Assembly: GCA_018969115.1 (NCBI GenBank)
Contig: JAGWYZ010000010.1
Location: 1 to 35,031, forward strand
Direction: 5' to 3'
From: Chloroflexota bacterium
GTDB taxonomy: Bacteria; Chloroflexota; Anaerolineae; J036; Brachytrichaceae
Length of the DNA: 35,031 bases
The stretch's first letter is position 1, and the number at the start of each line of letters is the position of its first letter. The notes below the pieces were generated by a model. The model was given only the letters and a program-made list of their open reading frames with translations, did no database searches and was not told the DNA's origin. Shown in pieces: positions 11,033-32,682 of the stretch. A program made the translations under genes and the position numbers.

Positions 11033-11094
11033 ATTGCTGCAAATAAATTGTTTAGTGAACGATCACATCTCACAACCGCCCAACCATCCAACCA

Positions 11095-11538
11095 CTAAAT
11101 TGTCATCTCCTGAGGATTTTGTGACACATGAGGATGATCACTGCCACCATACACTTTGAGTTTTGTAATCATGCGTCGCCCCAAGCGATTATGCGGGATC
11201 ATGCCCCACACCGCTGCACGAATGATCTTGTCGACCTTGCCTTGTCCAAGCAAATTACCCAACGATTCCACTTTCAAACCACCGCCTGTATAGGTTGAGT
11301 GGCGATAATATTTCTTATCGTCCAAGCGATTACCGGTCACTTTGACCTTCGAGGCATTGACCACCACAACAAAATCGCCACAATCAACATTAGGCGTATA
11401 GGTTGCCTTATGCTTGCCAATAATAACCTTAGCAATTTTCGACGACAAGCGGCCGAGCGTCTGCCCATCAGCATTGACGACATACCAATTTTTCTTGATA
11501 TCAGCCGCTGAAGCGGCGTATGTCTTATTTGTCACCAT
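11095..11538 (-). CDS. rplM: 50S ribosomal protein L13
   Basis: NWYVVNADGQTLGRLSSKIAKVIIGKHKATYTPNVDCGDFVVVVNA... Confidence 0.97.
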   Translation of the reverse strand: MVTNKTYAASAADIKKNWYVVNADGQTLGRLSSKIAKVIIGKHKATYTPNVDCGDFVVVVNASKVKVTGNRLDDKKYYRHSTYTGGGLKVESLGNLLGQGKVDKIIRAAVWGMIPHNRLGRRMITKLKVYGGSDHPHVSQNPQEMTI

Positions 11539-11554
11539 CGTTCTTACCTTCTCT

Positions 11555-12286
11555 CTAATAACTAACGTTCACCAAACATAACCCACAAGCAGGCGCCACC
11601 CCTTTTATAAGATCAGGATTACGCGCTTCAAGCATGCGATCTATATCTTCGACAGAATTTCTGTCACTTCCAATGCGAACTAATGTGCCAACAATGCGGC
11701 GCACCATGCGAAACAAAAAGGCATTCGCCTCTATCGTAAATCGTAATTCGTACAATGATACTTCTTGCCAATTCGCTCGAATGATTCGTCTAACCGTCGA
11801 TTCACCCACAGTTGGAGAACCAAAAGCCCTAAAATCATGCTCTCCAATCAAACGTTCAGCAGCAATATTCATGTTATCAACATTTAAAACCCACGGCAGT
11901 TGCCACGCATAATACCTCATTAAAGGATGCCGAACCAAATCCATCCTCAAAGTATATTCATAGGTGCGGCTAACGGCACTAAAACGTGGATGAAACTTTT
12001 CATCACAAATTTCAATTGACCGTATTACCACATCATCAGGCAAATTTGCATTTAATGCGCATTGCAATCGATCTAATGGATGTACCCAATCAACCTCAAA
12101 AGCAATAACTTGCCCACTGGCATGAACACCCGTGTCGGTTCTGCCAGCACCAATAATACCAACCGACTTGCCACATATCTGTAGCAGTGCAGCCTCGACC
12201 TCGCCCTGAACTGTTCTAACACTCGCCTGACGCTGAAACCCAAAATAATGAGTTCCATCATAGGCGAGTGTGGCACGAATCTTCAT
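11555..12286 (-). CDS. truA: tRNA pseudouridine synthase A (38-40)
   Basis: MKIRATLAYDGTHYFGFQRQ, GAGRTDTGVHASGQV, SRTYEYTL, FRMVRRIVGTLVRIG. ORF can extend 8 codons to 12310. Confidence 0.95.
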   Translation of the reverse strand: MKIRATLAYDGTHYFGFQRQASVRTVQGEVEAALLQICGKSVGIIGAGRTDTGVHASGQVIAFEVDWVHPLDRLQCALNANLPDDVVIRSIEICDEKFHPRFSAVSRTYEYTLRMDLVRHPLMRYYAWQLPWVLNVDNMNIAAERLIGEHDFRAFGSPTVGESTVRRIIRANWQEVSLYELRFTIEANAFLFRMVRRIVGTLVRIGSDRNSVEDIDRMLEARNPDLIKGVAPACGLCLVNVSY

Positions 12287-12352
12287 AGAGATTAAAGAGT
12301 TGGTATTCAAGTCTATAAACCCACATACCGCCTCTAAAAACCTCTCACAAAA

Positions 12353-12727
12353 CTAAACCCACTCAATCAGTGCCATTGGGGCGTTATCGCCCTTACGTGG
12401 CCCTAATTTTGAAATGCGTGTATACCCACCTTTGCGGTCCGTATAACGAGGTGCCAAATCTTGAAACACCTTACGTACTGTATCCACACCACCATTCACC
12501 TGCCCAGCCACCAAACGGCGAGCTGCAACCTGTGTCCCAGTGTCCGCATCTACGGCTTTCTTTGCAATTGTAATAAGCTTTTCGGCTTGATTTTGAATGG
12601 CCTTACACTTCGTTTCGGTCGTTTGAATACGCCCATGCATGACCAAATCAGTCACCAAGCTACGGCGTAAAGACGTGCGCTGTGCCGACGAGCGCCCCAA
12701 GTGATACCCAGCTATTCGATGTCTCAT
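12353..12727 (-). CDS. rplQ: 50S ribosomal protein L17
   Basis: MRHRIAGYHLGRSSAQRTSLRRSLVTDLVMHGRIQTTETKCKAIQ... Confidence 0.97.
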   Translation of the reverse strand: MRHRIAGYHLGRSSAQRTSLRRSLVTDLVMHGRIQTTETKCKAIQNQAEKLITIAKKAVDADTGTQVAARRLVAGQVNGGVDTVRKVFQDLAPRYTDRKGGYTRISKLGPRKGDNAPMALIEWV

Positions 12728-12729
12728 GA

Positions 12730-13698
12730 TTAAGCAACTTCCTCTTCGCTCACGGGTTCTTCGCCTTGAATCAGATTCCGTGCACGTAATTTTTCTCTCA
12801 ATTCCACCATTGACTTCTCACCAAAGTTACGCAAGTTTGTCAATGAACCACCATGCTTCTCCATCATCTCCATCAAATCACCAATCGTTGAAATTCCTGT
12901 ACGCTTCAACGAGTTATATACCCGTACGCTTAAATCAAGTTCTTCAATTGGTTTATTGCGTGATTCGTGTTGAATGGGTGGCAACTGAACCCCCATACCG
13001 GGCGCAGATTCAACAGGCATAACAATCCCAGCGACCAATTTCAAATGCGTCACCAGTAACTGTGCGGCATAACCCAGCGCTTCATTTGGCCGAATGCTGC
13101 CATCCGTCCAAATTTCAAGCACTAAACGGTCATAATTGGTCATTTGACCAACCCGTGCAGCCTCGACTTCAAAATTCACGCGACGAACTGGGCTATAAAT
13201 TGCATCTACTGGCAATTCGCCAATAGGCAAGCGTGCGTGCTGTTCAGCAGGCGAATACCCACGCCCAGTGTCTACCTGAAACTCAATATCCAACCGTGCT
13301 TTTGCTGAATCTGTCGTAAACAAGTAAAGATCACGGTTAATAATCTCAATTTCCGGTGGTGTCTGAATATCACCAGCAGTAACCACGCCTTCGCCGCGCA
13401 CTTCCAAGCGCATTCGAGCAGGCATATCACCCTGCATCCGCAAACGAATTTGCTTCACATTCAACATCAATTGCGTTACATCCTCTTTGACATTGGGGAT
13501 ATCAGCAAATTCATGATGCACATCAGTGATGCGCATTGAAATAATGGCAGCACCTTCAAGTGAACTATGAAGCACACGTCGTAACGAATTACCAAGCGTT
13601 ACGCCATACCCCTGCTCCATCGGCCCAATCGTAAAACGGCCATAGTCGCGAGTTAGGATGGTGCTTTCAACTTTAGGAAATACAAATGCTTGTGACAA
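12730..13698 (-). CDS. rpoA: DNA-directed RNA polymerase subunit alpha (TTG start)
   Basis: 322 aa; GNSLRRVLHSSLEGAA, C-terminal alphaCTD VRVYNSLKRTGISTIGDLMEM. First codon is TTG (plus strand CAA 13696-13698). Confidence 0.97.
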   Translation of the reverse strand: MSQAFVFPKVESTILTRDYGRFTIGPMEQGYGVTLGNSLRRVLHSSLEGAAIISMRITDVHHEFADIPNVKEDVTQLMLNVKQIRLRMQGDMPARMRLEVRGEGVVTAGDIQTPPEIEIINRDLYLFTTDSAKARLDIEFQVDTGRGYSPAEQHARLPIGELPVDAIYSPVRRVNFEVEAARVGQMTNYDRLVLEIWTDGSIRPNEALGYAAQLLVTHLKLVAGIVMPVESAPGMGVQLPPIQHESRNKPIEELDLSVRVYNSLKRTGISTIGDLMEMMEKHGGSLTNLRNFGEKSMVELREKLRARNLIQGEEPVSEEEVA

Positions 13699-13794
13699 CT
13701 TGCCCCCACACCTTCAATTTCCCTATTTAACACAAGTATATAAACCAACAATAAAAGTTTATATTGTGCAAATCAAGAAATTGAAGACTAGAAA

Positions 13795-14433
13795 TTAGCG
13801 CGAGTAGTATTCCACTACGAGCTGTTCCTTAACAAGGACTTCGATTTCATCACGCTTTGGCAAAACGCGAACCTCAGTCACCAACCCATTGCGATCAGCC
13901 ATTAACCACTGTGGGGTTGTTGGCGATTCTTTGTCAGCAGTCAGTCGGGTCCAATATTCCAACTTGCGGCTAGATTCACGCACCGAAATCTTATCACCCG
14001 GCTTTACCAAGTAAGATGGGATATTCATCGGATGACCATTCACATTAAAGTGGGCATGGGTCACTAACTGACGAGCACCTGCTCGTGACGCTGAAAAACC
14101 AGCACGATAAATCACATTATCCAAACGACGCTCTAGCAAAACAAGCAATTCGGCACCGGTCACACCACGTGATCGGGTTGCTTCACGGAAATAACGGCGG
14201 AATTGGGTCTCAAGCACACCATAGATGCGACGCACTTTTTGCTTTTCACGTAATTGAATAGAATAGTCACTGGGTTTTGTCCGTTTCCCTTTCAAATTTG
14301 GGCCATGTTGACCAGGCACAGTCCCACGCTTATTCATAGCACACTTGCTAGACAAGCAACGCGAGCCTTTCAAAAATAATTTATCGCCCTCGCGGCGGCA
14401 CAATCTACAAACAGGTTCAATATGTCGAGCCAT
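13795..14433 (-). CDS. rpsD: 30S ribosomal protein S4 (Cys-containing form)
   Basis: MARHIEPVCRLCRREGDKLFLKGSRCLSSKC..., RRLDNVIYRAGFSASRAGARQLVTHAH. Confidence 0.97.
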   Translation of the reverse strand: MARHIEPVCRLCRREGDKLFLKGSRCLSSKCAMNKRGTVPGQHGPNLKGKRTKPSDYSIQLREKQKVRRIYGVLETQFRRYFREATRSRGVTGAELLVLLERRLDNVIYRAGFSASRAGARQLVTHAHFNVNGHPMNIPSYLVKPGDKISVRESSRKLEYWTRLTADKESPTTPQWLMADRNGLVTEVRVLPKRDEIEVLVKEQLVVEYYSR

Positions 14434-14520
14434 TTCTTATTTTTAGATTTTTGAGTTTAAATTTTAGATTTATAACACGCAATTAGCCTATAAAACCAAA
14501 ATCTAAAATCATAAATTCCT

Positions 14521-14931
14521 CTAGACGCGGCGCTTCTTTGGTGGGCGGCATCCATTATGAGGGACTGGGGTAATATCCGTAATTGACTTAACGCGCAAAC
14601 CTGATCCCTGTAGCGCACGCACAGCAGACTCACGCCCCGGTCCCGGGCCTTTCACCAACACTTCCACTTCCTGCATACCATTGTCCACTGCCGAGCGATA
14701 TGCATTTTGTGCGGCAATACGGGCGGCAAATGGCGTACTCTTACGGTTACCACGAAACCCCGCTGATCCCGAGCTATTCCAACAAATCGTACCACCCACT
14801 TTATCGGTTATTGTAATAATCGTATTATTGAATGTAGCAGAAATATGGACTTGTCCATATGCCACATTTTTCTTTGCGCGCCGTGGGTTGGTTTGTCGGC
14901 GCACTACTCGTTGCTTTTTCTGTTCAGCCAT
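14521..14931 (-). CDS. rpsK: 30S ribosomal protein S11
   Basis: [15 protein letters not shown]..., ends [18 protein letters not shown]. Confidence 0.97.
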
Positions 14932-15021
14932 AATTAGATTTACGATTTACGATTTAACGATTTACGATTTAACTGTAAAAATACAATCACAAATCGTAAA
15001 CCATAAATCGCAAATTTAAGA

Positions 15022-15411
15022 TTACTTCTTCTTTGCACCCTTACGGCGACCACGACCGGCGACCGTCTTCTTAATACCCTTACGAGTTCGTGCATTGGTG
15101 CGCGAGCGTTGGCCACGTGTGGGCAGGTTGCGCTTGTGGCGCAGCCCTCGATACGAGCCAATTTCAATGAGGCGCTTAATATTTAATTGCACTTCACGGC
15201 GCAAATCACCTTCTACACGATATTCTTTTTCAATAATCTCGCGTAGCTGGGCTACCTCTACTTCGGTCAAATCTTTAATACGAGTCGCGGGACTAATTTT
15301 AGTGCGAGCCAGAATTACTTGTGCGTTTTGTCGACCCACCCCATAAAGGTAGGTTAAACCGATATCAACGCGCTTCTGTCGCGGCAAGTCAACGCCTGCA
15401 ATACGTGCCAT
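15022..15411 (-). CDS. rpsM: 30S ribosomal protein S13
   Basis: [31 protein letters not shown]..., [24 protein letters not shown]. Confidence 0.97.
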
Positions 15412-15480
15412 CTATCTCTTCTCCTAAATACTCTCTAGAAACCAAGTTTTTATGAACTAAAGAATCGGCTCCTGTTTGTT

Positions 15481-15594
15481 CTAGCCCTGTCGCTGTTTAT
15501 GCTTGGGGTTTTCGCAAATAACGAAAATTTTTCCTTGGCGCTTTACCACTTTGCACTTTGGGCAGCGCTTTTTTACCGATGCTGAAACTTTCAT
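15481..15594 (-). CDS. rpmJ: 50S ribosomal protein L36 (not in ORF track, under 60 aa)
   Basis: Translated by hand: [44 protein letters not shown] upstream. Confidence 0.95.
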
Positions 15595-15663
15595 ATCAAA
15601 CCTCTATCAACGCGTAATTTTACGCGCAAAAAACCGACTCACCTACCGGCGAGCCGGACTATC

Positions 15664-16437
15664 TCAACTTAAAATTGTTAACACTTCTGGCTCACCATCC
15701 GTGATCGCCACCGTGTGCTCAAAATGGGCGCTAAGTTTACCATCTTTTGTCGCAACTGTCCAGAGGTCTTTCTTAACTTTTGTTCCGGCAACCCCTTGAT
15801 TGATCATAGGTTCCACCGCAATGGTCAAACCCGGACGTAACATAAAGCCATGGTCCTCTTCACCCGTATTCATTAAACTAAAGCCTTCATGTAGCTTACG
15901 CCCGACACCATGACTGCTGTATTCTTCAACCACACTATAACCACGACCATGCGCAACCCGTTGAATTGCTGCACCAATATCTCCGAAGCGATTTCCTTTA
16001 CGCATGACAGCAATCGCACTCTTCAAGCATTCCTGCGTCGTTGACATCAATTCTTGGGCATATCGGTTTACTCGCCCTACCGGAAAGGTGGTGGCAGAGT
16101 CGGCATGGTAGCCCTTATAACAAGCTCCAACATCTATTTTGACAATATCACCCTCTTTTAACCGCCGCGTGGTAGGAATACCATGCACAATCTCATCATT
16201 TACCGAAGCACAGATTGTTCCTGGAAAGGGTGGCTGCCCTGCTGTTTTATCAGGGATATAACCTTTAAATGATGAAACTGCACCATGTTTTGCAATAATA
16301 TCGGCAGCAATTTGGTCTAGATCTAAAGTGGTAACACCCGGTTTTACATGATGCCCAATTTCGGCTAAAACCGTCGCAACAATATGACCTGCTTGCCGCA
16401 TCAAAGCTAATTCTGGGAGCGATTTTAGAACTATCAT
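15664..16437 (-). CDS. map: Type I methionine aminopeptidase
   Basis: 257 aa; GYIPDKTAGQPPFPGTICASVNDEIVHGIP, DVGACYKGYHADSATTFPVG, YSSHGVGRKLHE. Confidence 0.96.
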   Translation of the reverse strand: MIVLKSLPELALMRQAGHIVATVLAEIGHHVKPGVTTLDLDQIAADIIAKHGAVSSFKGYIPDKTAGQPPFPGTICASVNDEIVHGIPTTRRLKEGDIVKIDVGACYKGYHADSATTFPVGRVNRYAQELMSTTQECLKSAIAVMRKGNRFGDIGAAIQRVAHGRGYSVVEEYSSHGVGRKLHEGFSLMNTGEEDHGFMLRPGLTIAVEPMINQGVAGTKVKKDLWTVATKDGKLSAHFEHTVAITDGEPEVLTILS

Positions 16438-16440
16438 GCC

Positions 16441-17091
16441 CTATACCTTCGCAATCGCTGCTAACAATGCCACTGTTACTTGGTCAACAGTTTGTTCGCC
16501 ATCAATTTGGCGCAACAACCCTCGGTCTGAATAATATGAAATCAATGGAGACGTATTCTTTTCAAATACTTTGACCCGTTCCGTCACCGTTGCTGGCTCG
16601 TCGTCTGGACGGCGATATAGGGTTCCTAAACAATCACTTTTCTTGCATACCTTGGCATCATTTGGTCCTAAACTGTAAACAGAACCACAGGTATTGCATG
16701 TCCAACGATTGCTCAACCGTTCAACCAACAACTCAGACCGTACGTGCAAATAAGGCACAACTGTGATTGCTTGCCCAATGTTTTTGAGCATTTCATCTAA
16801 TGCAAGAGCTTGGGGCTGTGTTCGCGGAAACCCATCTAAAATAAAGCCCGTTTGACAATCAGGCTTGCTCAAGCGATCTTGCACAATTTGAATTGTAAGT
16901 TCATCAGGGACGAGTGCGCCGCTATCCATTATTGCGGCAACACGCCGGCCTAACTCGCTATCGCTCTTACGAATCGCACGAAACATATCACCACTAGAGA
17001 TATGTGGAATATGAAACTGCTGAACAAGAACAGCTGCTTGGGTACCTTTGCCTGCGCCCGGTGCCCCTAACATAACAATACTGTTTTTCAT
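16441..17091 (-). CDS. adk: Adenylate kinase (Cys-containing lid)
   Basis: MKNSIVMLGAPGAGKGTQA, GFILDGFPRTQPQA, CNTCGSVYSLGPNDAKVCKKSDCLGTLYRRPDDEP. Confidence 0.96.
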   Translation of the reverse strand: MKNSIVMLGAPGAGKGTQAAVLVQQFHIPHISSGDMFRAIRKSDSELGRRVAAIMDSGALVPDELTIQIVQDRLSKPDCQTGFILDGFPRTQPQALALDEMLKNIGQAITVVPYLHVRSELLVERLSNRWTCNTCGSVYSLGPNDAKVCKKSDCLGTLYRRPDDEPATVTERVKVFEKNTSPLISYYSDRGLLRQIDGEQTVDQVTVALLAAIAKV

Positions 17092-17123
17092 TGCATTACG
17101 CCCCAATAACCCAAGATCAAAAA

Positions 17124-18548
17124 TTAACGAATAAAACCTTCGTACCGTCGCATCATTAATTGTGCTTCAAGCTGACGCATGGTATCGAGCACAACACCAA
17201 CCAAAATAAGCAAACCAGCACCATCGATCAAACGTGCACCACCTGTTGCCCCTAAGGGCGTCAAGAATTGCAAATTGGTAACGTAGGCGATACCATCAAT
17301 AATATACGGCAGAATTGCCAACGTAGCTAAAAATAAAGCCCCCACAATGGTTAAACGACGCATTACCTTGGTGATAAACGTATCAGTTGTTTTTCCGGGA
17401 CGGATACCCGGAATAAAACCACCTTGTTTTTGTAGGTTTTCAGCAAGGCTTTGTTGTTGCATTACAACATCGGTATAAAAATAGGTAAATCCGATTACAA
17501 GCACAAATAACATAATTGGATAGAAAACCTGCACAAAGCTAGTTCTACCGCCAATTCGTCCGCCCGTAAAAATCTGAATCACGCTTTGAGCAAAATTTTG
17601 AACACCAGCATCCGTGCTATTCGCAAAAAAGCCTGCAATCACTGCTGGAAATGTCAGCAAGGCTTGGGCAAAAATCAACGGGATCATACCGGTCGAATTT
17701 ACCTTGAGGGGGATATGTGTCCCTTGCCCCCCCATCACACGGCGGCCCCGGACACGCTTCCCATATTGCACATTAATTCGACGCTCTGCTTCTTGAATAA
17801 TAACAATGGCAATGATCATGCCGATGAGAAACAAAGCAAATGAAATGAACGTTGCAACTCCGGATGCAGTATCTGTCGCAGTTCCAAAGATTGAGGCAAC
17901 ACCAAATGGCAAACGCGAAACAATCCCTCCAAAAATGATCATTGATAAACCTTGACCAATACCACGCTCAGTAATTAATTCGCCAAGCCAAATTGCAAAC
18001 AGAGTACCAGCCGTCATTGTCAAAATGGTGACAATTGTAGGCAAGATAAAAGCAGGATCGGTTAAACCCCAGTTAGGCAATACCCGTCCCAATTGACCAC
18101 TACTGACACTTTGTCCAATGCTTTCAAAAATATTTACTTGACCAATTGCATTCAGCATCGCCATTGGCACGGTAAAGATGTAAGTCAATCGGTTAATTTT
18201 GCGCCGGCCCTGTTCCCCTTCTTTTGCCATTTCTGTCAAACGAGGAATCACAGGTATCATCAATTGGATGATTAATTGTGCTGTCACATAAGGATATACC
18301 CCCATTGACAATACAGAAAAGTTATAAACCGAACCGCCTGATAGCAAGCTCAGCAAACCTACAAGGTTTCCTAATGCACCGGCTGACCCAGCATTAATAT
18401 TTTCTTGAATCTGGCGCAATAGTTCTACGTTCACACCCGGTACCGGAATATGCGAAACTAACCGATATATTGCCAGAATGAACACCGTGAACAAGATTCT
18501 GCCACGAAGTTCTGGGAGAAATAGCGCATTGCGCAGAGCTTCTAACAT
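17124..18548 (-). CDS. secY: Preprotein translocase subunit SecY
   Basis: 474 aa; RILFTVFILAIYRLVSHIPVPGVN, VYPYVTAQLIIQLM, ITERGIGQGLSMIIFGGIV, FIPGIRPGKTT. Confidence 0.97.
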   Translation of the reverse strand: MLEALRNALFLPELRGRILFTVFILAIYRLVSHIPVPGVNVELLRQIQENINAGSAGALGNLVGLLSLLSGGSVYNFSVLSMGVYPYVTAQLIIQLMIPVIPRLTEMAKEGEQGRRKINRLTYIFTVPMAMLNAIGQVNIFESIGQSVSSGQLGRVLPNWGLTDPAFILPTIVTILTMTAGTLFAIWLGELITERGIGQGLSMIIFGGIVSRLPFGVASIFGTATDTASGVATFISFALFLIGMIIAIVIIQEAERRINVQYGKRVRGRRVMGGQGTHIPLKVNSTGMIPLIFAQALLTFPAVIAGFFANSTDAGVQNFAQSVIQIFTGGRIGGRTSFVQVFYPIMLFVLVIGFTYFYTDVVMQQQSLAENLQKQGGFIPGIRPGKTTDTFITKVMRRLTIVGALFLATLAILPYIIDGIAYVTNLQFLTPLGATGGARLIDGAGLLILVGVVLDTMRQLEAQLMMRRYEGFIR

Positions 18549-18625
18549 ATTTAAAATTGAGAATTGAGAATAATATTGAAATGTGAGTGACGATAAATAT
18601 CCTCAATTCTCAACTCTGATACAAA

Positions 18626-19108
18626 TTATCGAACGCGATAACCGCCGCGCTTTACTTCTAACTTGGTAACAGTCCCACCTGCTTGTTCAATTTTCTCTTT
18701 GGCGGTTGCCGAAAATTTATGAGCAGTTACTTTTAATGCCAAAGCAATATCGCCATCACCTAAAATTGCAATATGTGAATCGCTATTATGGGTCAGTCCC
18801 ATTGCTACCAATGCTTCTGGGGTTACCTCAGCATTAGCCTCAAATCGTTCAGCTAGGGTGCTAACATTAATCGGTGTATATACAATTTTGTATGGATTAG
18901 AAAAATTTACACCGCGTGCAAATGGTAATTTTCGAACCAAGGGCATTTGACCACCTTCGAAATAACCATTTTTTACGCCACCAGAACGTGAGGCTTGCCC
19001 CTTCTGACCCTTACCAGCCGTCTTACCTTGACCAGCCGAGGGACCTTGACCTTTGCGCTTCTTGCGCTTACGTGAGCCTGCTGCAGGCTGAATTTCATGT
19101 AATTTCAT
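18626..19108 (-). CDS. rplO: 50S ribosomal protein L15
   Basis: MKLHEIQPAAGSRKRKKRKGQGPSAGQGKTAGKGQKGQASRSGG; start moved to 19108. Confidence 0.96.
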   Translation of the reverse strand: MKLHEIQPAAGSRKRKKRKGQGPSAGQGKTAGKGQKGQASRSGGVKNGYFEGGQMPLVRKLPFARGVNFSNPYKIVYTPINVSTLAERFEANAEVTPEALVAMGLTHNSDSHIAILGDGDIALALKVTAHKFSATAKEKIEQAGGTVTKLEVKRGGYRVR

Positions 19109-19209
19109 GTTGTAACTCGCTTTCGCTGACGCTACAACCAAAATATCGAATTGAAAATGCACCGTAATAAATTACACACACTCCCAATTCGTCATCTTGC
19201 GTTGTGCTT

Positions 19210-19404
19210 CTAATTTGAAATTTGAACCAAATGTTTAACCGCATTCACCATGCCGCGGATTTGTGGCACATCTGGGCGCTCAATAACTTGACCAAGTTTT
19301 GAAAAACCAAGCGCCTTTAAGGTTCGCTTTTGGCGAACATCATAACTAATTGCACTCTTGACCCATTTAATTGTCAATTTTTTTTCGCTAGTCATATCGC
19401 TCAT
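19210..19404 (-). CDS. rpmD: 50S ribosomal protein L30
   Basis: KLTIKWVKSAISYDVRQKRTLKALGFSKLGQVIERPDVPQIRGMVNAVKHLVQI. Confidence 0.94.
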   Translation of the reverse strand: MSDMTSEKKLTIKWVKSAISYDVRQKRTLKALGFSKLGQVIERPDVPQIRGMVNAVKHLVQISN

Positions 19405-19407
19405 TGC

Positions 19408-20160
19408 TTAAGCCTCTCCCACTGGTTTTGGAAATGGGCGCAAAGCATCCACTTCTTTACCACGCCGCTTAGCTTCTTCGTCCAAATTCTTTAATTGCAT
19501 TAAAGCATCAAACGTTGCATAAGTTGCATTCATCTTGCTGCCAGAGCCAAGAGACTTTGTCAACACATTTTGCACACCTGCCGCTACCAAGACAGCACGC
19601 ACACCACCACCAGCAATGACACCAGTACCGGGAGATGCTGGTTTTAATAATACCTTGGCCCCACCATACTTCATAATCACTTCATGTGGAATAGTGTGAT
19701 CAAGTAAGTGAACTTGTTTCATACTTGTGCGTGCGCTATCTGTTGCTTTACGAATGGCATCTTGGACAGCACGGGCACGGCCTAAACCGATACCAATCTT
19801 GCCTTTACCATCGCCAACAACAATCAAAGCTCGAAATGCAAAACGTCGGCCACCTTTGATTACTTTTGCAACACGCGTAATATCGACAATCTTCTGCTCA
19901 AAATCATCCACTGGGCGTTCTTGGCGTGGTCCCCCACGCCCTTCATTGCCCATATTTGCAGCAGGATTGGCAGCATTTGCGTTACCGCGACCGCTACCTG
20001 GGCCACCACGCCCACCACCGGGGCCGCGATTTCCACCGCCAGCGCTGCGGTTTCCACCGCCAGAACTGCGATTTCCACCGCCAGAACTGCGATTTCCACC
20101 ACCGGGGCCACCAGCACTGGGGCCGCTACGTCGAATCGGATTTGGTCTTGCGTCTGCCAT
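19408..20160 (-). CDS. rpsE: 30S ribosomal protein S5 with long Gly/Asn/Arg-rich N-terminal extension
   Basis: Core FEQKIVDITRVAKVIKGGRRFAFRALIVVGDGKGKIGIGLGRARAVQDAIRKA; N-terminal 80+ aa include GGGNRSSGGGNRSSGGGNRSAGGGNR. Confidence 0.96.
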   Translation of the reverse strand: MADARPNPIRRSGPSAGGPGGGNRSSGGGNRSSGGGNRSAGGGNRGPGGGRGGPGSGRGNANAANPAANMGNEGRGGPRQERPVDDFEQKIVDITRVAKVIKGGRRFAFRALIVVGDGKGKIGIGLGRARAVQDAIRKATDSARTSMKQVHLLDHTIPHEVIMKYGGAKVLLKPASPGTGVIAGGGVRAVLVAAGVQNVLTKSLGSGSKMNATYATFDALMQLKNLDEEAKRRGKEVDALRPFPKPVGEA

Positions 20161-20162
20161 AG

Positions 20163-20519: not shown

Positions 20520-20585
20520 CTCTGAATTCTTGAGTTTAGATTTTAGATTTTGGGCCACTTATCATAAGTAACCCGAAATCTAAAA

Positions 20586-21149: not shown

Positions 21150-21228
21150 CTTGCGATTTGCGATTGACTATTAATGATTAATACCAATAAGCAACCTAGT
21201 TTATAGGAGGCTCATGATGGTCCAACCA

Positions 21229-21633: not shown

Positions 21634-21641
21634 TTATTCTC

Positions 21642-21836: not shown

Positions 21837-21911
21837 TTCTCTCCAATCTTGTGATCTTGTGATGTTGCAATTTTTACTCACCCAATCGCGATATCACAAA
21901 ATCTAAAATGT

Positions 21912-22466: not shown

Positions 22467-22467
22467 G

Positions 22468-22782: not shown

Positions 22783-22795
22783 CGTAATTTCTCGT

Positions 22796-23167: not shown

Positions 23168-23170
23168 TTC

Positions 23171-23425: not shown

Positions 23426-23430
23426 TGCTA

Positions 23431-23655: not shown

Positions 23656-23659
23656 GACT

Positions 23660-24070
23660 TTACTCCTGCTTCCCAATGACCTGCGTCTTCATCGGCAGTT
23701 TATATGCCGCTTGACTCAGAGCCACTTTAGCAATATCTGCTGGCACACCCGATACTTCAAACATAACACGTCCGGGCTTTACAACCGCAACCCAATGATC
23801 AACACTACCCTTACCAGAACCCATGCGGGTTTCGGCAGGCTTAGCTGTAATTGGCTTGTCTGGGAAAATGCGAATCCACATCTTACCGCGACGTTTCATC
23901 TCACGCACAATCACGCGACGAACCGCCTCGATTTGTCGGGCCGTAACCCAAGCTGGCTCTATGGCTTGCAAACCAAAATCACCAATTTCTATCTCAACGT
24001 TGCCTTTCGCCATGCCAGTACGACGTCCGCGCTGTTGTTTACGATACTTTACTCTCTTTGGCATCAACAT
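23660..24070 (-). CDS. rplP: 50S ribosomal protein L16
   Basis: [49 protein letters not shown]. Confidence 0.97.
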
Positions 24071-24157
24071 GATGTCAACCTCTCTTAAATTTTAAATTTT
24101 AAACTTTGGATTTTGAATGAAGCAATTGTGCAGATCCAAAATCTAAAATCTAAATTC

Positions 24158-24859
24158 TTATCGTTCCCGTTCCTTCTGTGAGGATTGTTGGGTGCGGGTT
24201 GGGCGAGTTATCTCTTTTGCTTGCGCACCGGGTAATACTTCACCTTTATAAATCCACACTTTTACACCAATCCGACCATAAGTCGTCGCAGCTTCAGCTT
24301 GAGCATAATCAATATCAGCGCGGAGCGTACCACGCGGAATTCGACCTTCCATATGCTTATCTGTACGCTTCATATCAGAACCGTTCAAACGCCCTGCACA
24401 CTCAATCTTAACACCATGAGCGCCTTTTTGCATGGTAGTTTGAATTGCCTTTTTCATTGCGCGTGTATGTGGAATACGGCGTTCAATTTGTTGTGCAATA
24501 TTCTCGGCAACCAAATAAGCAACCAAGTCAGGCTGTGTAATTTCTTCAATATCGAGCTTGACTTTTTTACCAGTCATACGCTCAATACCTTCTCGAATTG
24601 CCTTTACTTGAGCACCCTTGCGCCCAATCACAATTCCCGGACGAGCCGTATGCACAGTAACGTGCAATTGATTCGGCGGAAATCGTTCAATAATGACATC
24701 GGCAACACCAGCTTTGTCCATTTCTTTACGCAAATAACTGCGCAGACTAAAGTCTTCTTGCAAAAGCTTAGTGTAGTCACGCTTAGAGGCAAACCAGCGG
24801 CTCTTCCAGTCGCGGATCACGCCCAATCGGAATCCATAAGGATGAACTTTTCGACCCAT
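24158..24859 (-). CDS. rpsC: 30S ribosomal protein S3
   Basis: MGRKVHPYGFRLGVIRDWKSRWFASKRDY..., GIVIGRKGAQVKAIREGIERMTGKKV (KH domain). Confidence 0.97.
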   Translation of the reverse strand: MGRKVHPYGFRLGVIRDWKSRWFASKRDYTKLLQEDFSLRSYLRKEMDKAGVADVIIERFPPNQLHVTVHTARPGIVIGRKGAQVKAIREGIERMTGKKVKLDIEEITQPDLVAYLVAENIAQQIERRIPHTRAMKKAIQTTMQKGAHGVKIECAGRLNGSDMKRTDKHMEGRIPRGTLRADIDYAQAEAATTYGRIGVKVWIYKGEVLPGAQAKEITRPTRTQQSSQKERER

Positions 24860-24939
24860 ACTTTTTACGTTGATTGATTGACTAGTTGATTAGTTTTGCA
24901 CTATGTCACCAATGTAAACCCATCAACCAATTAACAAAT

Positions 24940-25311
24940 TTACTCAGCCGCCTCACCAACAACCACGTTAATGTGGCACGACTTGCGCTCAATCGGACGG
25001 AACCGACCACGCGCGCCAAAGCGACGCCAGCTACGGCTGGGGCCGCCATCAACCCAAATTTGCTTTACCACCAAATCATTGGGGCTTAGCGAATGGCGAT
25101 CTGTGGCATTTGCAACAGCAGATTGAATTGCTTTGCTCACTGGCTCAGCAGCCGCCTTTGGCGTGAAACGCAACAAAGTCAAAGCGTCAACAGCTTTTTT
25201 ACCACGCACTAAATCGACGACCAAACGAACTTTCTGGGCCGACATACCAATATGACGGGCGATTGACATCGCTTCATTACTAGACAACTTACTTGAAACT
25301 TTTTGTCCCAT
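24940..25311 (-). CDS. rplV: 50S ribosomal protein L22
   Basis: ARHIGMSAQKVRLVVDLVRGKKAVDALTLLRFTPKAAAEPVSKAIQSAVANA. Confidence 0.96.
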   Translation of the reverse strand: MGQKVSSKLSSNEAMSIARHIGMSAQKVRLVVDLVRGKKAVDALTLLRFTPKAAAEPVSKAIQSAVANATDRHSLSPNDLVVKQIWVDGGPSRSWRRFGARGRFRPIERKSCHINVVVGEAAE

Positions 25312-25314
25312 GGT

Positions 25315-25593
25315 TTACTTATCATCCTTCGAATCTTTCGAAATATGTCCACGGAAGGTTCGTGTTGGTGCAAATTCACCTAACTTGTGGCCAACCATGT
25401 TCTCAGTTACATAAATGGGAACATGACGCCGCCCATCATGCACAGCAATTGTGTGACCTACCATTTGCGGGAAGATCGTAGATGAACGTGACCAAGTTTT
25501 TAATACTTTTTTCTCGCCCTTTGTATTCATTGTCTCAACACGTTTGAGCAATTTTGCGTCTACAAAGGGGCCTTTTTTCAGAGATCGTGACAT
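25315..25593 (-). CDS. rpsS: 30S ribosomal protein S19
   Basis: [20 protein letters not shown]..., [32 protein letters not shown]. Confidence 0.97.
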
Positions 25594-25596
25594 AGC

Positions 25597-26424
25597 TTAC
25601 TTAGTCCTCCGACGAATAATAAATTTATTCGTGCGCTTGTTACGGCGCGTCTTAACACCCAATGCTGGCTTACCCCATGGGGTCTTAGGACTGGGCATAC
25701 CAATTGGCGAACGGCCTTCACCGCCACCATGTGGGTGAGAGGCTGGGTCCATAGCGATACCGCGAACACTCGGTCGAATACCCAAATGGCGGCTGCGACC
25801 GGCTTTACCTAACTTGATATTGCCATGATCTGTATTCCCAACTTGGCCGATCGTCGCCATACAAGCTTGTAGTATCATGCGGGTTTCACCGCTTGGCATA
25901 CGCAAGGTTGCATAATCGCCTTCTTTCGCTAACAATTGTGCACCGGCACCAGCCGAGCGCACCATTTGTGCACCTTTTCCCGGGCGCAGTTCAATAGCAT
26001 GAACCGTAGTACCAACCGGAATATTTGTTAATGGCATCGAATTACCAACCTTTGCCTCAGCATCAGGTCCGCTCATCACATCATCACCCACTTTCAAACC
26101 AATAGGGGCAATAATATAGCGCTTCTCGCCATCAGCGTAGTGCAACAAGGCAATACGTGACGAACGATTCGGGTCATATTCAATGGTAGCAACACGCGCT
26201 GGCACACCAAATTTATTGCGCTTAAAATCGATAATGCGATATGCGCGTTTGTGTCCGCCACCTTGATGGCGTGTGGTAACCCGACCAAAAGCATTGCGCC
26301 CACCACGTTGACGCAAATCAGTCACTAAAGACTTTTCTGGCGTATCACGTGTAATGTCAGAAAAATCTGACATCGTCATCATGCGCTTGCTGGGTGTAGT
26401 CGGTTTAAATGACTTAATTGCCAT
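25597..26424 (-). CDS. rplB: 50S ribosomal protein L2
   Basis: [25 protein letters not shown]..., [36 protein letters not shown]. Confidence 0.97.
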
Positions 26425-26726
26425 TATGCTACCCCCTCAAATATGCCAATACGATCGGTAGGTCGCACTTGCACAACAGCTTTTTTCCATTCTGATTGGC
26501 GGATCATTGAGCGGCGTGTTCGTTGATTACGTTTCATTTTCTTTGGCATCACGGCAATATTGACACGTGTTACCTTTACATCAAAAGCAATCTCTACCGC
26601 TTCCTTAATTTGCTGCTTATTGGCACGACCATCAACTTCAAAGGCATACTGTGGCGACTCATAACCAGTCTGCCATGTCGTCTTCTCAGTAATGAGCGGG
26701 CGTCTCAGCACTTCATATGGATGCAT
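26424..26726 (-). CDS. rplW: 50S ribosomal protein L23
   Basis: [17 protein letters not shown]..., [30 protein letters not shown]. Confidence 0.95.
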
Positions 26727-26839
26727 CTTTCGTTCCTCTTGTTTTGCAGGCGCAATACTTAATGTAACGCCTATACTTTCTCAATTTATGCACTTAAACA
26801 TTAGCCTTAAATTCAAAAACTAATATTTAAATTTTCAAA

Positions 26840-27457
26840 TTAACCGAGCCACTCCTCAACCTTCTTCAGAGTATCGAGTGATAAAACCAACTTGTCGTGT
26901 GTAAAAATATCACGAATATTGAGATAACCCGACAAAAGTGTTTTATGGCCTTCGGTATTGCGAGCAGCACGTTCCAAATTTTCATTGTGTGCTGGCAAAA
27001 CCACCAAACCCTTGTTTACCTCTAATGCCTTCATTGCATTAACAAAATCTTTAGTCTTGGCTTGTCCCAAGTCAAAAGAGTCAACCACAACTATTTCTTG
27101 ATCAAGGCACTTTTGAGTTAAAGCGCTACGAATAGCACCACGCACCATCTTTTTGGGCATGGCCTGAACATAGCTGCGAACCACTGGACCAAAAGCAACA
27201 CCGCCACCCACCCAATGTGGGGCCTTGCGGCTACCTTGACGCGCATTGCCTGTGCCTTTTTGCGCAAATGCTTTCTTCTTTGTGCGATTGACTTCAGCAC
27301 GTGTCTTCACTTTGTGGGTTCCGAGATGTGCATTTGCATTTTGGCGCAACAAGGACTGATGCATTAATGCCTGATTGACTTCAACACTAAAAATGTTGTC
27401 TGGCAATTCAACTTCGCCTACTTGCTGCCCTTGGAGATTTTTGACTGCGATTTTCAT
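26840..27457 (-). CDS. rplD: 50S ribosomal protein L4
   Basis: HQSLLRQNANAHLGTHKVKTRAEVNRTKKKAFAQKGTGNARQGSRKAPHWVGGGVAFGP. Confidence 0.96.
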   Translation of the reverse strand: MKIAVKNLQGQQVGEVELPDNIFSVEVNQALMHQSLLRQNANAHLGTHKVKTRAEVNRTKKKAFAQKGTGNARQGSRKAPHWVGGGVAFGPVVRSYVQAMPKKMVRGAIRSALTQKCLDQEIVVVDSFDLGQAKTKDFVNAMKALEVNKGLVVLPAHNENLERAARNTEGHKTLLSGYLNIRDIFTHDKLVLSLDTLKKVEEWLG

Positions 27458-28122
27458 GCTTTTTTCGCCTCCTTAATCACCACCACGCCACCATTTGCAC
27501 CTGGAACAGAGCCAGCAACCGCAATCAAATTACGCTCGACATCGACCATCATTACCTTAAGTCGGACTGAAGTGCGGGCTTCATCACCGAAGTGACCAGC
27601 CATGCGAGTACCCTTTTCAACGTGGCCAATGCCTGTACCTGCACCAATGGAGCCCGGTGCGCGTTCACGGTCTGAGGCACCGTGTGTTTTCTTTTGGCGA
27701 TGAAACCCGTGGCGCTTGATGTTACCTGCAAAACCACGCCCCTTAGACGTGCCAGAGATGTCTACAAATTCGCCAGCCTTAAAAATATCGGCTTTAACAA
27801 CATCACCAGCTTTCATACCATCAACAGCTTTAATACGATTTTCGTATAAATGCTTAACCGGTGGAACACCCGCCAATTCTTTGCGCTTTGGATATTTTGT
27901 ATTTGGGGCTAAGTTGCCCAAATGTCCGAGCTCACCGCGTGACAACTTCTTGGCCTGAACTTCGCCGAATCCAAGTTGGATGGCATCATAGCCTTCTTTT
28001 GCCATTGTCTTAATTTGCGTTACGTAGTTTGGTCCCGCTTCAATTACGGTAACCCCTGTAACGTTGCCCTTTTCATCAAAGAGCTGGGTCATGCCGACCT
28101 TTCGGCCAATCAGCTTCTTCAT
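27454..28122 (-). CDS. rplC: 50S ribosomal protein L3
   Basis: MKKLIGRKVGMTQLFDEKGNVTGVTVIEAGPNYVTQIKT..., GRGFAGNIKRHGFHRQKKTHGASDRERAPGSIG. Confidence 0.97.
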   Translation of the reverse strand: MKKLIGRKVGMTQLFDEKGNVTGVTVIEAGPNYVTQIKTMAKEGYDAIQLGFGEVQAKKLSRGELGHLGNLAPNTKYPKRKELAGVPPVKHLYENRIKAVDGMKAGDVVKADIFKAGEFVDISGTSKGRGFAGNIKRHGFHRQKKTHGASDRERAPGSIGAGTGIGHVEKGTRMAGHFGDEARTSVRLKVMMVDVERNLIAVAGSVPGANGGVVVIKEAKKA

Positions 28123-28140
28123 ATTTCAATCATTGGCATA

Positions 28141-28249
28141 AAAGCGCATGTGGGCGCTTTAGCTTGACTGTGCTTCAGGATCATTGGCTGATGGTTACTT
28201 GGGAAGATAGTCTGCTGCTTACCGATAAGTCCAGACGAGCGCCATCAGC
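28141..28249 (-). promoter_or_regulatory. Candidate structured RNA in the rpsJ-rplC gap (nested helices plus attenuator-like hairpin)
   Basis: 8-bp stem 28187-28194/28242-28249, 5-bp stem 28210-28214/28232-28236, 4-bp stem 28218-28221/28226-28229, and hairpin 28141-28147/28154-28160 just upstream of rplC. Confidence 0.4.
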
Positions 28250-28346
28250 ATAATCCCTATATTCGGTTGTTAAGAATTAGAAATTTTTCGAGATCACGAT
28301 TTAACCGCAAAAGTGCAATTTAACCGCAAAATTACCCCATTACTAA

Positions 28347-28655
28347 TTACAACTTAATTTCGATATCTACGCCTGCAGGCAAATTCAACCGCATCAGGTT
28401 TTCGATTGTCTTCGAATCTGGATCCATAACATCAATCAAACGCTTATGGGTACGGATTTCAAAGTGTTCATGCGAGTCTTTATCGATATAAGGCGAGCGC
28501 CGAACCGTAAAACGCTCAATTTTTGTCGGCAGTGGCACGGGGCCAACCACCGTAGCGCCAGCACGCTCTGCGTTTTCTACGATTCGCTGCGCCGACATAT
28601 CGAGCGAGCGATGATCATATGCTTTTAGCCGAATTCGAAGTCTTTGCTTTGCCAT
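28347..28655 (-). CDS. rpsJ: 30S ribosomal protein S10
   Basis: [76 protein letters not shown]; start at 28655. Confidence 0.97.
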
Positions 28656-28669
28656 CTTTTTACTTTTGG

Positions 28670-28719
28670 TTTTGAATTTTGGATTTTGAGTTGATAAGCT
28701 CAAAATCCAAAATTCAAAA
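28670..28719. repeat. Intergenic palindromic cassette (tuf-rpsJ), perfect 21-bp stem
   Basis: TTTTGAATTTTGGATTTTGAG (28670-28690) is the exact reverse complement of 28699-28719; loop TTGATAAG. Confidence 0.9.
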
Positions 28720-28726
28720 TCACAAA

Positions 28727-29926
28727 TTAGCCTAACACCTTGGTAATGGTGCCAGCGCCCACTGTCAAACCACCTTCACGAATGGCGAATTTTGAACCTT
28801 GTTCCAAAGCGACGGGTGCAATCAATTGCACTTTCATCGTCACGTTGTCACCAGGCATCACCATCTCTACCCCTTCCGGCAAGGTCACATTCCCTGTCAC
28901 ATCCATCGTGCGGATGTAGAACTGGGGGCGATACCCTGTGAAGAATGACTTGTGGCGCCCCCCTTCATCTTTGCGCAACACGTATACTTGTGCTTCAAAT
29001 GTGTCATGTGGCTTAATTGAGCCAGGCTTGGCCAACACCATACCGCGCTCAACATCTTCACGTTCAATACCACGCAACAACGCACCGCAGTTGTCACCAG
29101 CATCGGCGCTTTCAAGCACCTTGTGGAACATTTCCAAACCCGTCGCAGTCGTGGTGCGGGTATCCCTCAGACCCACGATTTCGACCGTATCGCCAACCTT
29201 AATCGAACCACGCTCAACACGACCCGTCACTACTGTGCCACGTCCTTTAATCGAGAACACGTCTTCAACGGGCATCATAAATGGCTTGTCGGTCTCACGC
29301 ACAGGTTGTGGAATATAAGAATCGCAGGCATCCATCAATTCTAAAATGGGCTTGTATTCAGGCGCATTAATGTCTTTGCTGGTGCTTTCCAAGGCCTTCA
29401 TTCCTGAACCACGAATGATTGGGGTGGCATCGCCCGGAAAACCATACTTGTCGAGCAATTCGCGCAATTCCATCTCGACCAATTCCAACAATTCTGGGTC
29501 ATCCATCATGTCGACCTTGTTCAAGAAACACACAATGCTTGGCACTTCTACTTGGCGGGCAAGCAACACGTGTTCTTTGGTTTGGGGCATTGGGCCATCT
29601 GGTGCACTAACTACCAAAATTGCACCGTCAACTTGAGCTGCACCGGTGATCATGTTCTTAATATAGTCACGGTGACCGGGCATGTCGACGTGGGCATAAT
29701 GGCGCTTCTCGGTCTCATATTCGACGTGAGCAATGCTGATCGTAATACCACGGGCCTTTTCTTCAGGAGCCTTGTCAATTTGATCATAGGCCATGAAGCT
29801 GGCGCCGCCTTTCATCGCCAATACTTTGGTGATTGCAGCGGTCAAGGTCGTCTTGCCGTGATCTACGTGCCCCATCGTGCCGATGTTTAAGTGGGGCTTA
29901 GTTCTTACAAATTTCTCTTTTGCCAT
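28727..29926 (-). CDS. tuf: Elongation factor Tu
   Basis: 399 aa; [48 protein letters not shown]. Confidence 0.97.
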
Positions 29927-29964
29927 CTCTCTTTTCTATCTCCAGTAATGAGTGACGAATCACT

Positions 29965-32058
29965 CTATTTCGTGTTTTTACCAATCAACTCATCAGCCAA
30001 ATTCTTGGGTAATTGGGCGTAATGGTTAAATTCCATCACAAAGTTTCCGCGTCCTTGCGTCATACCACGTAATTCGGTCGCATAACCAAACATTTCACTC
30101 AGCGGAACATCGGCGTTAACAGCCTGTGCGTTACCACGGTCTTCAATACTATGAATGGCACCGCGTCGAGAATTTAAGTTACCAACGACCGAGCCTGTAT
30201 AGGCTTCGGGTACAACAACTTCAACCTTCATGATGGGTTCCATCACAACACCTCTGGCCTTGGCAACAGCTTCTTTAATTGCAAAAGATCCTGCAATTTT
30301 GAACGCCATTTCAGATGAGTCAACTTCATGGAAAGACCCATCAACCAAATGAACCTTCACATCGACCATCGGGTAGCCCGCAATGATGCCAGCATCTAAA
30401 GCTTCTTTAATGCCTTTTTCTACTGCTGGAATGTATTCACGTGGAATCGCACCGCCAACAATTTCATTAAGAAATAAAAAGCCTTTACCGGTTTCATTTG
30501 GTTCAATTTCAATTGCACAATCACCAAATTGGCCTTTGCCACCCGACTGACGTTTGAAAGTACCACGAGCAGCCGCAGCCTTTGTGATCGTCTCACGATA
30601 GGCTACACTAGGTCGCCCAGTCTTCACCTCAACATTGTATTCGCGCTTCATACGGTCAACAATCACATCAAGGTGCAACTCGCCCATACCCGCTAGTGTG
30701 GTTTGACCAGTTTCAGCATCAGTCGCATAATGTAACGTCGGATCTTCATCCGACAAGGCACGTAGCGCCTTACCCATTTTGTCTTGATCGACTGTTGTCT
30801 TTGGCTCAACTGAAATCTTAACCACAGGCTCTGGGAAAGAGATCTTCTCAAGCAAAATAGGTTGATCGATATCGCTTAAGGTATCACCCGTAATCGAGTC
30901 TTTTAGACCTTGTGATACACCAATATTACCTGCGCTAACCGATGTAATCGGCTCGCGTTTATTCGCATGCATTTGAAACAAGCGTGAAATACGCTCTTGC
31001 TTGCCTTTGCTGGTATTAATAACTGTTTCGCCTTGCGAAACCACCCCAGAATAAACACGGAAGAAAGCCAACTTACCCATCCCCGTTGGATCGGTAATCA
31101 CCTTAAATACCAAAGCTGAAAATGGTTCTTTGGAATTAGGATTGCGCGTAATGGGTTGTTCGGTAACAGGATGAATACCCGTTGTGGCTGGTACATCTAA
31201 TGGCGAAGGCAGATAAGCAGCAACAGCATCCAGCACCAATTGCACCCCTTTATTCTTTAGTGCCGAGCCACAAAATACCGGGAACAACTTACGTTTAATA
31301 GTAGCATCACGAATTGCCGGAATCATTTCCTCGATGGTCGGAGTTTCTCCCTCCAAATATTTCAACATCAAGTCATCGTTGGTTTCAGCTAATGTTTCAA
31401 TCATCTTCTCGCGGGCAGCTTTAGCCGCAGCCTGATGGCTAGCCGGAATTGGACCACGGGTGATTTCTGTGCCCTTGTCGCCTGAAAAGGTGACATATTC
31501 CATTTTCAATAGATCGATGATACCAGCAAAATCTGACTCTAGCCCAACGTTCAATTGCATCACCAAGGGCTTGGCGGCAAGTCGGTCTACAATCATGCTA
31601 ATGCATCGCTCTAAGCTTGCGCCGGTGCGATCGAGCTTATTAACAAAACAAATACGGGGAACACCATATTTATCAGCCTGACGCCATACAGTCTCTGATT
31701 GTGGCTCTACACCGGCCACACCGTCAAACACTACAACGCCGCCGTCTAACACACGCAATGAACGCTGCACTTCAACTGTAAAGTCGATATGCCCCGGAGT
31801 GTCAATCAAATTGATTTGAATCTCTTTTCCTTCGGGTGTTTTCCAAAAACATGTTGTTGCCGCAGCCGTAATGGTAATACCGCGCTCTTGTTCTTGCGCC
31901 ATATAGTCCATCACGGCAGCGCCTTCGTGTACTTCACCGATTTTATAAGTTCGGCCTGTATAGTACAAAACGCGTTCTGACGTTGTGGTCTTGCCAGCGT
32001 CGATGTGCGCAATAATACCAATATTGCGTATGTCGTGTAACGGATACTCTTTACTCAT
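29965..32058 (-). CDS. fusA: Elongation factor G
   Basis: 697 aa; [70 protein letters not shown]. Confidence 0.97.
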
Positions 32059-32140
32059 TGCTCAATTTCGTATTATTTTTTAATTTAGGCTTTAAAACAT
32101 TGTTTTTCAAAATAAATAGCCCAAAATCAAAAACTTAAAA

Positions 32141-32611
32141 CTACCAGCGGAAATGTGCAAATGCACGGTTCGACTCTGCCATTTTGTGAGTTTCCTCACG
32201 CTTTTTAATTGCTGCACCCGTATTATTTGCGGCATCCATCATCTCATTTGCCAATTTTTCGGCCATCGACTTGCCACTCCGCTTGCGGGCTTCACCAATC
32301 AGCCAACGCATTGCCAAGCTTTCTTTACGATGGGCATTTACTTCTACCGGTACTTGCAGCGTTGCACCACCAACACGGCGGGGCTTGACTTCTACATTGG
32401 GGCCAAGCTTATTCATAGCCTCTTCAAAAATAGAAAGGGCTGGCTTTTGTAGCTTGGTCTCAGCAATTTGCAATGCTGTATATACAACATTTTGCGCAAC
32501 ACTCTTCTTACCGCTGTACATAATGCGGTTGATCAAGCGCTGTAACACTTGACTGTTATAGCGTGTATCGGGCATCACAGGGCGCTTGGGGGGTTGATTT
32601 CGTCTTGGCAT
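32141..32611 (-). CDS. rpsG: 30S ribosomal protein S7
   Basis: MPRRNQPPKRPVMPDTRYNSQVLQRLINRIMYSGKKSVAQNVVY..., MAESNRAFAHFRW. Confidence 0.97.
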   Translation of the reverse strand: MPRRNQPPKRPVMPDTRYNSQVLQRLINRIMYSGKKSVAQNVVYTALQIAETKLQKPALSIFEEAMNKLGPNVEVKPRRVGGATLQVPVEVNAHRKESLAMRWLIGEARKRSGKSMAEKLANEMMDAANNTGAAIKKREETHKMAESNRAFAHFRW

Positions 32612-32624
32612 CTTACAATTTTCG

Positions 32625-32678
32625 ATTTACGATTTATGAGTTTGGATTGATATCGATCCAAACTCATAAATCGTAAAT
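32625..32678. repeat. Intergenic palindromic cassette (rpsL-rpsG), perfect 23-bp stem
   Basis: ATTTACGATTTATGAGTTTGGAT (32625-32647) is the exact reverse complement of 32656-32678; loop TGATATCG. Confidence 0.9.
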
Positions 32679-32682
32679 TAAT

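Follow-up and report, generated by a model that had tools for sequence, protein, structure and literature searches.

Stop-proximal heptad palindromes in the ribosomal-protein operon and genome of an uncultured Chloroflexota genus: candidate STRR-like hairpins at gene 3' ends

The window examined here, a stretch of 35,031 nucleotides that makes up the entire contig G000:C154, derives from a genome (G000) of a genus of uncultured Chloroflexota bacteria, and its minus strand carries the genes from rpsL to rplS, arranged in the str-S10-spc-alpha order of ribosomal-protein genes; the contig also holds flanking genes. Many gaps between these genes are occupied by inverted repeats, often with arms made of seven-nucleotide units (heptads). 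These cassettes are genome-wide rather than operon-specific, and the heptad hairpins are associated with the 3' ends of genes and not with starts. Judged from sequence comparison, our working explanation, to which we give an even chance, is that they are lineage-specific, fast-evolving heptad palindromes resembling the short tandemly repeated repetitive (STRR) sequences of cyanobacteria, which would be born at the DNA level and then kept as stop-proximal 3' RNA hairpins that work in the manner of repetitive extragenic palindromes (REPs).

Hairpins in the operon and at gene 3' ends

The host assembly (4.6 Mb, 472 contigs, 94%-complete) has RpsC with its nearest named relatives in the Anaerolineae/Thermoflexales (Chloroflexota). 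The genomes used for comparison comprise G003, a sister with near-identical ribosomal proteins, G001 from the same genus, G002, which is assigned to this genus yet is much more distant, and G010 and G015 from another genus. Palindromes were tested at the DNA level by comparing a gapped palindrome score with those of 100 dinucleotide shuffles, and RNA structure by the folding z-score of the sense strand. The operon scan covered 21 gaps measuring 25 bp or more after correction of the start codons, those of rplR, rpsN, rpsJ, rplO and others being shortened because the versions in the list of reading frames were over-long.

An inverted repeat outscores every shuffle in 10 of these 21 gaps (Table 1), and the shuffled sequences that the initial annotation had named as a refuting control fail to yield such stems. 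Nine of the sites it had listed are among them, including the claimed 23/23 stem at 32625-32678, which is perfect, and a tenth at 19134-19205 had been overlooked. Its 7/7 palindrome at 11051-11099 falls away, the score lying below the shuffle mean, while 24860-24939 is not significant as DNA but folds as sense RNA. The rpsG>fusA (32059-32140) and fusA>tuf gaps have palindrome scores unremarkable against shuffles. Folding of the sense RNA is significant (p <= 0.02) in 13 of 15 selected operon gaps, and z is below -2 in 15 of the 17 gaps of 40-135 nt.

Table 1. Palindromes and hairpins in the window (IR, inverted-repeat score; z, folding z-score of the sense RNA)
Feature	Position	Strand	Heptads	DNA level	RNA level	Remarks
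rpsL>rpsG hairpin	32625..32678	-	ATTTACG/ATTTATG	IR 23, above all shuffles	-30.9 kcal, z -9.4	perfect 23-bp stem; starts 4 nt past rpsL stop
tuf>rpsJ hairpin	28664..28725	-	GATTTTG	IR 22, above all shuffles	z -8.0	G001: stem retained, sequence rewritten (alignment)
rplV>rpsC weak hairpin	24869..24935	-	TTGATTG-type phrases	p 0.089	z -2.8, p 0.013	
rpsC>rplP hairpin	24091..24154	-	GATTTTA	IR 13.5, above all shuffles	z -3.0	G003: one more heptad in 5' arm (alignment)
rplE>rpsN hairpin	21853..21903	-		IR 10, above all shuffles	z -3.3	G003 differs by 8-bp unit in 3' arm
rplF>rplR hairpin	20541..20585	-		IR 13.5, above all shuffles	z -5.4	
rpmD>rplO hairpin	19134..19205	-		IR 10, p 0.01, above all shuffles	z -5.7	absent from the initial annotation
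rplO>secY hairpin	18557..18613	-	TTGAGAA	IR 13.5, above all shuffles	z -6.1	
rpsM>rpsK hairpin	14934..15019	-	GATTTAC	IR 17.5, above all shuffles	sense -32.4, antisense -18.3 kcal	86 of 90 nt of gap
rpsK>rpsD hairpin	14447..14516	-	GATTTTA	IR 15.5, above all shuffles	z -3.7	
rpsD>rpoA hairpin	13712..13786	-		IR 12, above all shuffles	z -5.6	
rplM>rpsI gap	11033..11094	-		p 1.0, below shuffle mean	z -1.0	palindrome not supported
Class A palindrome	8614..8668	.				CCGATGTCACTCT...AGAGTGACATCGG; between convergent genes; G003 and G001 have different, non-alignable palindromes there

The same architecture was then found throughout G000, G001 and G003. In the G000 sample of 442 kb, about a tenth of the genome, significant palindromes are present in 53% of co-directional, 64% of convergent and 28% of divergent gaps of 35-250 bp; the corresponding values are 54%, 100% and 26% in G001, and 49%, 83% and 7% in G003. 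The density inside one operon, which had initially seemed the striking feature, thus stands out against other bacteria but not against the remainder of the host genome. When gaps of 60-250 bp are considered, palindromes occur in 149/236 co-directional and 33/37 convergent gaps as against 13/43 divergent ones (p 8e-6), and heptad palindromes, a class with an arbitrary threshold scored in a fragmented metagenome assembly, in 60/236, 6/37 and 2/43, respectively (p 0.002). Since the heptad frequencies of co-directional and convergent gaps do not differ and divergent gaps are nearly devoid of them, the heptad palindromes are tied to the 3' ends of genes. Of 60 co-directional heptad hairpins, 52 start 0-8 nt past the stop codon (relative position within the gap 0.16, p 1e-6), and the distance to the next start increases with gap length; in gaps of 120-180 nt the hairpin lies a median of ~2 nt from the stop and ~50-60 nt from the next start. 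Anchoring at the start codon, or occlusion of the Shine-Dalgarno sequence, was rejected because the hairpins of long gaps track the stop and not the start. So was the idea that the stop codon always lies within the heptad array, given that lag-7 identity extends into it in a minority of cases only.

This placement bears on the view that the hairpin is a bridge for translational coupling, looping out the spacer such that a gap of 60-100 nt acts like one of 4-24 nt. Coupling has been proposed for the STRR hairpins of Nostoc (PMC2670836), and the 4-24 nt that, by the palindrome coordinates, stay unpaired in the operon between stop and next start resemble the direct gaps, which measure 1-30 nt. 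However, a bridge explains neither the equal frequency in convergent gaps nor hairpins that remain at the stop when the next start is far away, and the 3'-end association weakens it as a general role; we regard it as a serious but rather unlikely alternative. The 3' location also recalls transcription terminators, intrinsic or, as was initially suggested, partial: palindromes abound at convergent gene ends, and some non-heptad stems, such as that downstream of rplS, are ordinary terminators. The heptad stems, however, are AT-rich and without a U-tract, a TTTT at the stem or behind it being present in 3/32 and 2/28 cases (only 5/60 overall), and some ten serial stems would be costly in an essential operon. 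Intrinsic terminators with a GC-rich stem and a U-tract were consequently ruled out for the heptad class, although some non-heptad stems do qualify, and termination in any form is very improbable as the explanation.

Heptad arms, their polarity and their replacement

In co-directional gaps the self-identity of the arms peaks clearly at lag 7 (0.46), in agreement with the gap-specific, near-heptameric phrases first described, and heptad arms account for 32 of 80 significant co-directional palindromes in G000 and for 28 of 71 in G001. The words include AATTACG, GATTTTA/GATTTAC, AATGGTT, AAGTGCT, AGCCATG, AAGGATG, AGTAGTC and many more; 69 heptad palindromes use 42 different dominant heptamers, some of which recur many times. 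This rejects copies of a single mobile repeat for the heptad class and supports the earlier notion of a class of elements that share an architecture while differing in motif.

Of the 69, 65 have a G-rich 5' arm (p 3e-15); with G003 added, a G-rich 5' arm is paired with a C-rich 3' arm in 77 of 83 from three genomes, including 10 of 10 convergent cases, whereas non-heptad palindromes lack this polarity (65/130). As a palindrome is identical on both strands, the G-first order must be intrinsic and does not come from the direction of transcription, and it constrains any model of how heptad repeats arise.

Comparison of orthologous co-directional gaps of at least 40 bp reveals that the presence of a significant palindrome is conserved, well beyond expectation, between G000 and G003 (20 both, 17 neither, 3 discordant; p 3e-8) and between G000 and G001 (16 both, 16 neither, 6 discordant; p 2e-5). 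The sequence is often another one. At a single stop codon (L267:254), G000 and G003 carry AAGGATG heptads and G001 carries TGGTTGA heptads, between flanks that are ~90-95% identical, and further swaps set AATTACG against AGTAGTC (L164:7603), TTAATGG against AATTACG (L192:5612), and GGTTGAT against GATTTTGG (L164:15267) or GTTGCAG (L186:17239). Clear changes of heptad class number at least six in G000-G001 pairs and about two in G000-G003 pairs, the automatic swap label also taking in unit-number changes and drift. Between G000 and G003, a heptad has been gained in both arms at L164:7984. In the operon, the rplF>rplR stems of the two genomes differ by exchanges between Watson-Crick and G-U pairs (alignment), and its inner stem has compensatory changes in G001, from ACTTA/TAAGT to GCCTA/TAGGC. 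Across the rpsD>rpoA gap (13699-13794) the outer stem is constant between G000 and G003 and the inner stem alone is rewritten, with a gap identity of 0.83 as compared with 0.91-1.00 elsewhere; this divergence looks like a single event.

Alignments of relatives, the other refuting control named at the outset, therefore display conserved presence with replaced sequence, heptad gains in one or both arms, and drift that preserves pairing through G-U. Because the hairpin site is retained while its words often differ in sister species, it seems, on the sequences compared, to be structure rather than sequence that is conserved. Such rewriting is difficult to reconcile with autoregulatory sites for ribosomal proteins. 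The E. coli rpsL-rpsG gap is regulatory, and a sub-threshold Alpha_RBS match (28 bits, cut-off 38) is located at 15379-15476, just upstream of and into rpsM. Yet this match is outside the stems, no Rfam ribosomal-protein family reaches its gathering threshold over the heptad stems, and the same elements trail other genes genome-wide, which leaves autoregulation with hardly any probability. Otherwise, the Rfam families gave only weak miRNA-like matches to perfect stems, which were judged to be chance.

The counts of the triple heptad GATTTDN are 82 for G000, against 9 in its reversed control, 148 for G001 and 95 for G003, as well as 101 for G010 and 174 for G015 of the other genus (zero control matches); G002 has none in spite of its assignment to the host genus, which suggests patchy gain or loss. 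Of 150 genomes of the class, 16 from several families contain three consecutive copies of AATTACG (control without matches), and AATTACG-type matches occur in cyanobacterial and Bacteroidota plasmids, including one of Dolichospermum. That the same words appear patchily across phyla points to a shared way of generating heptads rather than to descent of each cassette.

Folding of the transcript strand

In the operon gaps of three sister genomes of the genus, mean z is -4.5 for the sense and -3.0 for the antisense strand, the sense strand folding better in 32 of 42 (p 1e-6), and z falls below -2 for 90% of sense and 52% of antisense strands, with 17% in outgroup operons for the sense strand. G000 and G003 are not independent in these statistics, and by genome the bias has p 0.002 for G001 alone and p 0.057 for G000 alone. 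Operon gaps of the family show the same tendency (mean z -2.1 versus -1.3; sense better in 103/145, p 1e-8), while in other Chloroflexota and outgroup operons sense and antisense folding do not differ significantly. Better folding of the sense strand in the family's operons argues for selection on RNA. Furthermore, the perfect, presumably young stems of rpsL>rpsG and tuf>rpsJ are without sense bias whereas drifted stems such as rpsM>rpsK have it, which is consistent with stems that originate as DNA palindromes and later come under selection at the transcript level.

Several observations weigh against this account. Genome-wide, the sense excess is small (p 0.43 in G000, significant in G001) and similar in gaps without palindromes; GU:AC mismatches in co-directional stems are only modestly skewed (72:45 in G000, 54:40 in G001, 25:23 in G003); stem bases change at much the same rate as the remaining gap positions between G000 and G003 (0.060 and 0.056); and the gene calls outside the operon are simple, home-made ones. 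Genome-wide GU and AC counts were taken as suggestive only, and genome-wide strand folding was dropped as evidence, being small and not palindrome-specific, with the strong effect confined to the ribosomal-protein operon.

Another rival is a neutral or selfish origin, in which slippage and fold-back template switching would constantly produce heptad palindromes that are tolerated only at harmless places, just after genes and not in promoters. An unconstrained primary sequence, swaps of heptad class, the simultaneous gain in both arms, the patchy taxonomic spread and the little sense bias of the freshest stems are all as this would have it. Left unexplained, however, are the excess sense-strand stability in the operon, the position of the hairpin no more than 8 nt from the stop even where gaps are long, and the persistence of a hairpin whose sequence has been replaced, and we therefore give neutrality a minor share of our belief.

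Other repeats, known families and a proposed course of events

A second kind of palindrome (class A) is GC-richer, 45-75 bp long, with recurrent ends like GCCGATTTCACTAT...ATAGTGAAATCGGC and variants around variable perfect cores. It is found mainly in convergent or longer gaps (L166, L175, L180, L190 and others; 8614-8668 in the window), is replaced at orthologous sites by unrelated palindromes or heptad hairpins, and is a different element class with the same genome-wide 3'-end habit. The stem downstream of rplS (AAAAAAAGCACTGTTAACAGTGCTTTTTTT, window 10060-10145) is terminator-like, A/T-flanked and of ordinary type. Dispersed repeats of ~110-120 bp (L163:12986-13100, L163:16256-16376, L163:18136-18245, L188:4405-4522), with dozens of copies in G003 and G001, are not heptad hairpins.

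That AT-rich short-period elements are already known elsewhere, as was first supposed, is borne out by cyanobacterial STRRs, which are described as intergenic hairpins of degenerate, usually 7-bp units, also within operons, for example at hupS-hupL and near hoxW in Nostoc/Anabaena, with proposed roles in transcript stability or translation coupling (PMC2670836); intergenic repeats are likewise described for the Nostoc hyp operon (PMC2408588). The Chloroflexota cassettes share the tandem degenerate 7-bp units, the intergenic location and the hairpin. Stop anchoring, the exchange of heptad classes at orthologous stops, the G-richness of the 5' arm and the density in ribosomal-protein operons were measured here, and the portions of both papers drawn on contain no such statement for STRRs (PMC2670836, PMC2408588). 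Since STRRs belong to filamentous cyanobacteria and our host to the Anaerolineae, we use the label 'STRR-like'; the finding extends the known cyanobacterial kind of heptad hairpin to another phylum, as a variant.

The P6b heptad motif, TDNGATT, also fits the GATTTAC, GATTTTA and GATTTTG words of the Chloroflexota cassettes. As described, the P6b heptads similarly form two degenerate arms, with a variable number of units, which base-pair in the RNA, but at one site within an intron rather than at many intergenic sites (PMC3488679). REPs and bacterial interspersed mosaic elements are reported to be palindromes that follow coding regions in unidirectional and convergent gaps, near stop codons or supplying them; their stems contain G-T pairs, the elements presumably act as RNA, and they are copies of a few conserved sequences with GTAG/CGTC tags (PMC3733652). 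The 3' location in unidirectional and convergent gaps recurs here, whereas many copies of one conserved 20-40 bp palindrome, a mark of REPs, are not seen in the heptad class with its 42 dominant words. REPs driven by a Y1 (REP-associated tyrosine) transposase were ruled out, the assembly, at its 94% completeness, giving no PF01797 match in a search that was positive in 5 of 14 known genomes. In E. coli, REPs near stop codons reportedly stall ribosomes. Arrays of the heptamer TAACTGA, described between genes of Beggiatoaceae, Cyanobacteria and Bacteroidetes and in some ribosomal-protein operons, are likewise intergenic and shared by distant phyla, but they repeat one heptamer directly, immediately before starts, and are not palindromes behind stops (PMC4679880).

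For the STRR-like hairpins, the following course of events may be envisaged. A heptamer palindrome would arise or insert right after a stop codon by replication slippage and fold-back templating, the latter writing both arms together, G-rich arm first. Turnover, as seen by comparison, would shift the number of units or exchange the whole sequence for another heptad class at the same site, and maintenance, supported by the strand statistics, would keep the folding ability of the transcript while allowing drift via G-U pairs. Like a REP, a structure 0-8 nt past the stop could block 3'-5' exonucleases and mark gene boundaries in polycistronic mRNA, and the 3' end of each upstream reading frame would hence be protected separately; where operon gaps are short, the hairpin would also fold away most of the spacer. 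We infer both the origin by slippage and fold-back copying and the function as a 3' mRNA hairpin, an exonuclease barrier and boundary mark; effects on termination or coupling are possible. A bolder reading, which we think rather unlikely, is that palindromes are actively made by a polar process, both in this lineage and in other bacteria with the same heptads. It would write short heptad units at the two ends of a site that directly follows a stop codon, always with the G-rich strand leading, and would rewrite the site with a new heptad, with RNA selection keeping the hairpin even in the ribosomal-protein operon. The G-first order would then have the polarity that two telomere-like ends show when joined head to head.

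To our knowledge, what heptad repeats do and how they arise has not been established in the decades since they were first recorded in cyanobacteria. The genus studied here has many orthologous sites at which a hairpin persists while its sequence has been exchanged, so that selection of structure can be separated from copying of sequence, and such sites make the origin and function of heptad repeats testable. If the STRR-like account is true, bacterial genes would bear an exchangeable structural part at their 3' ends, even within the cell's most conserved operon.

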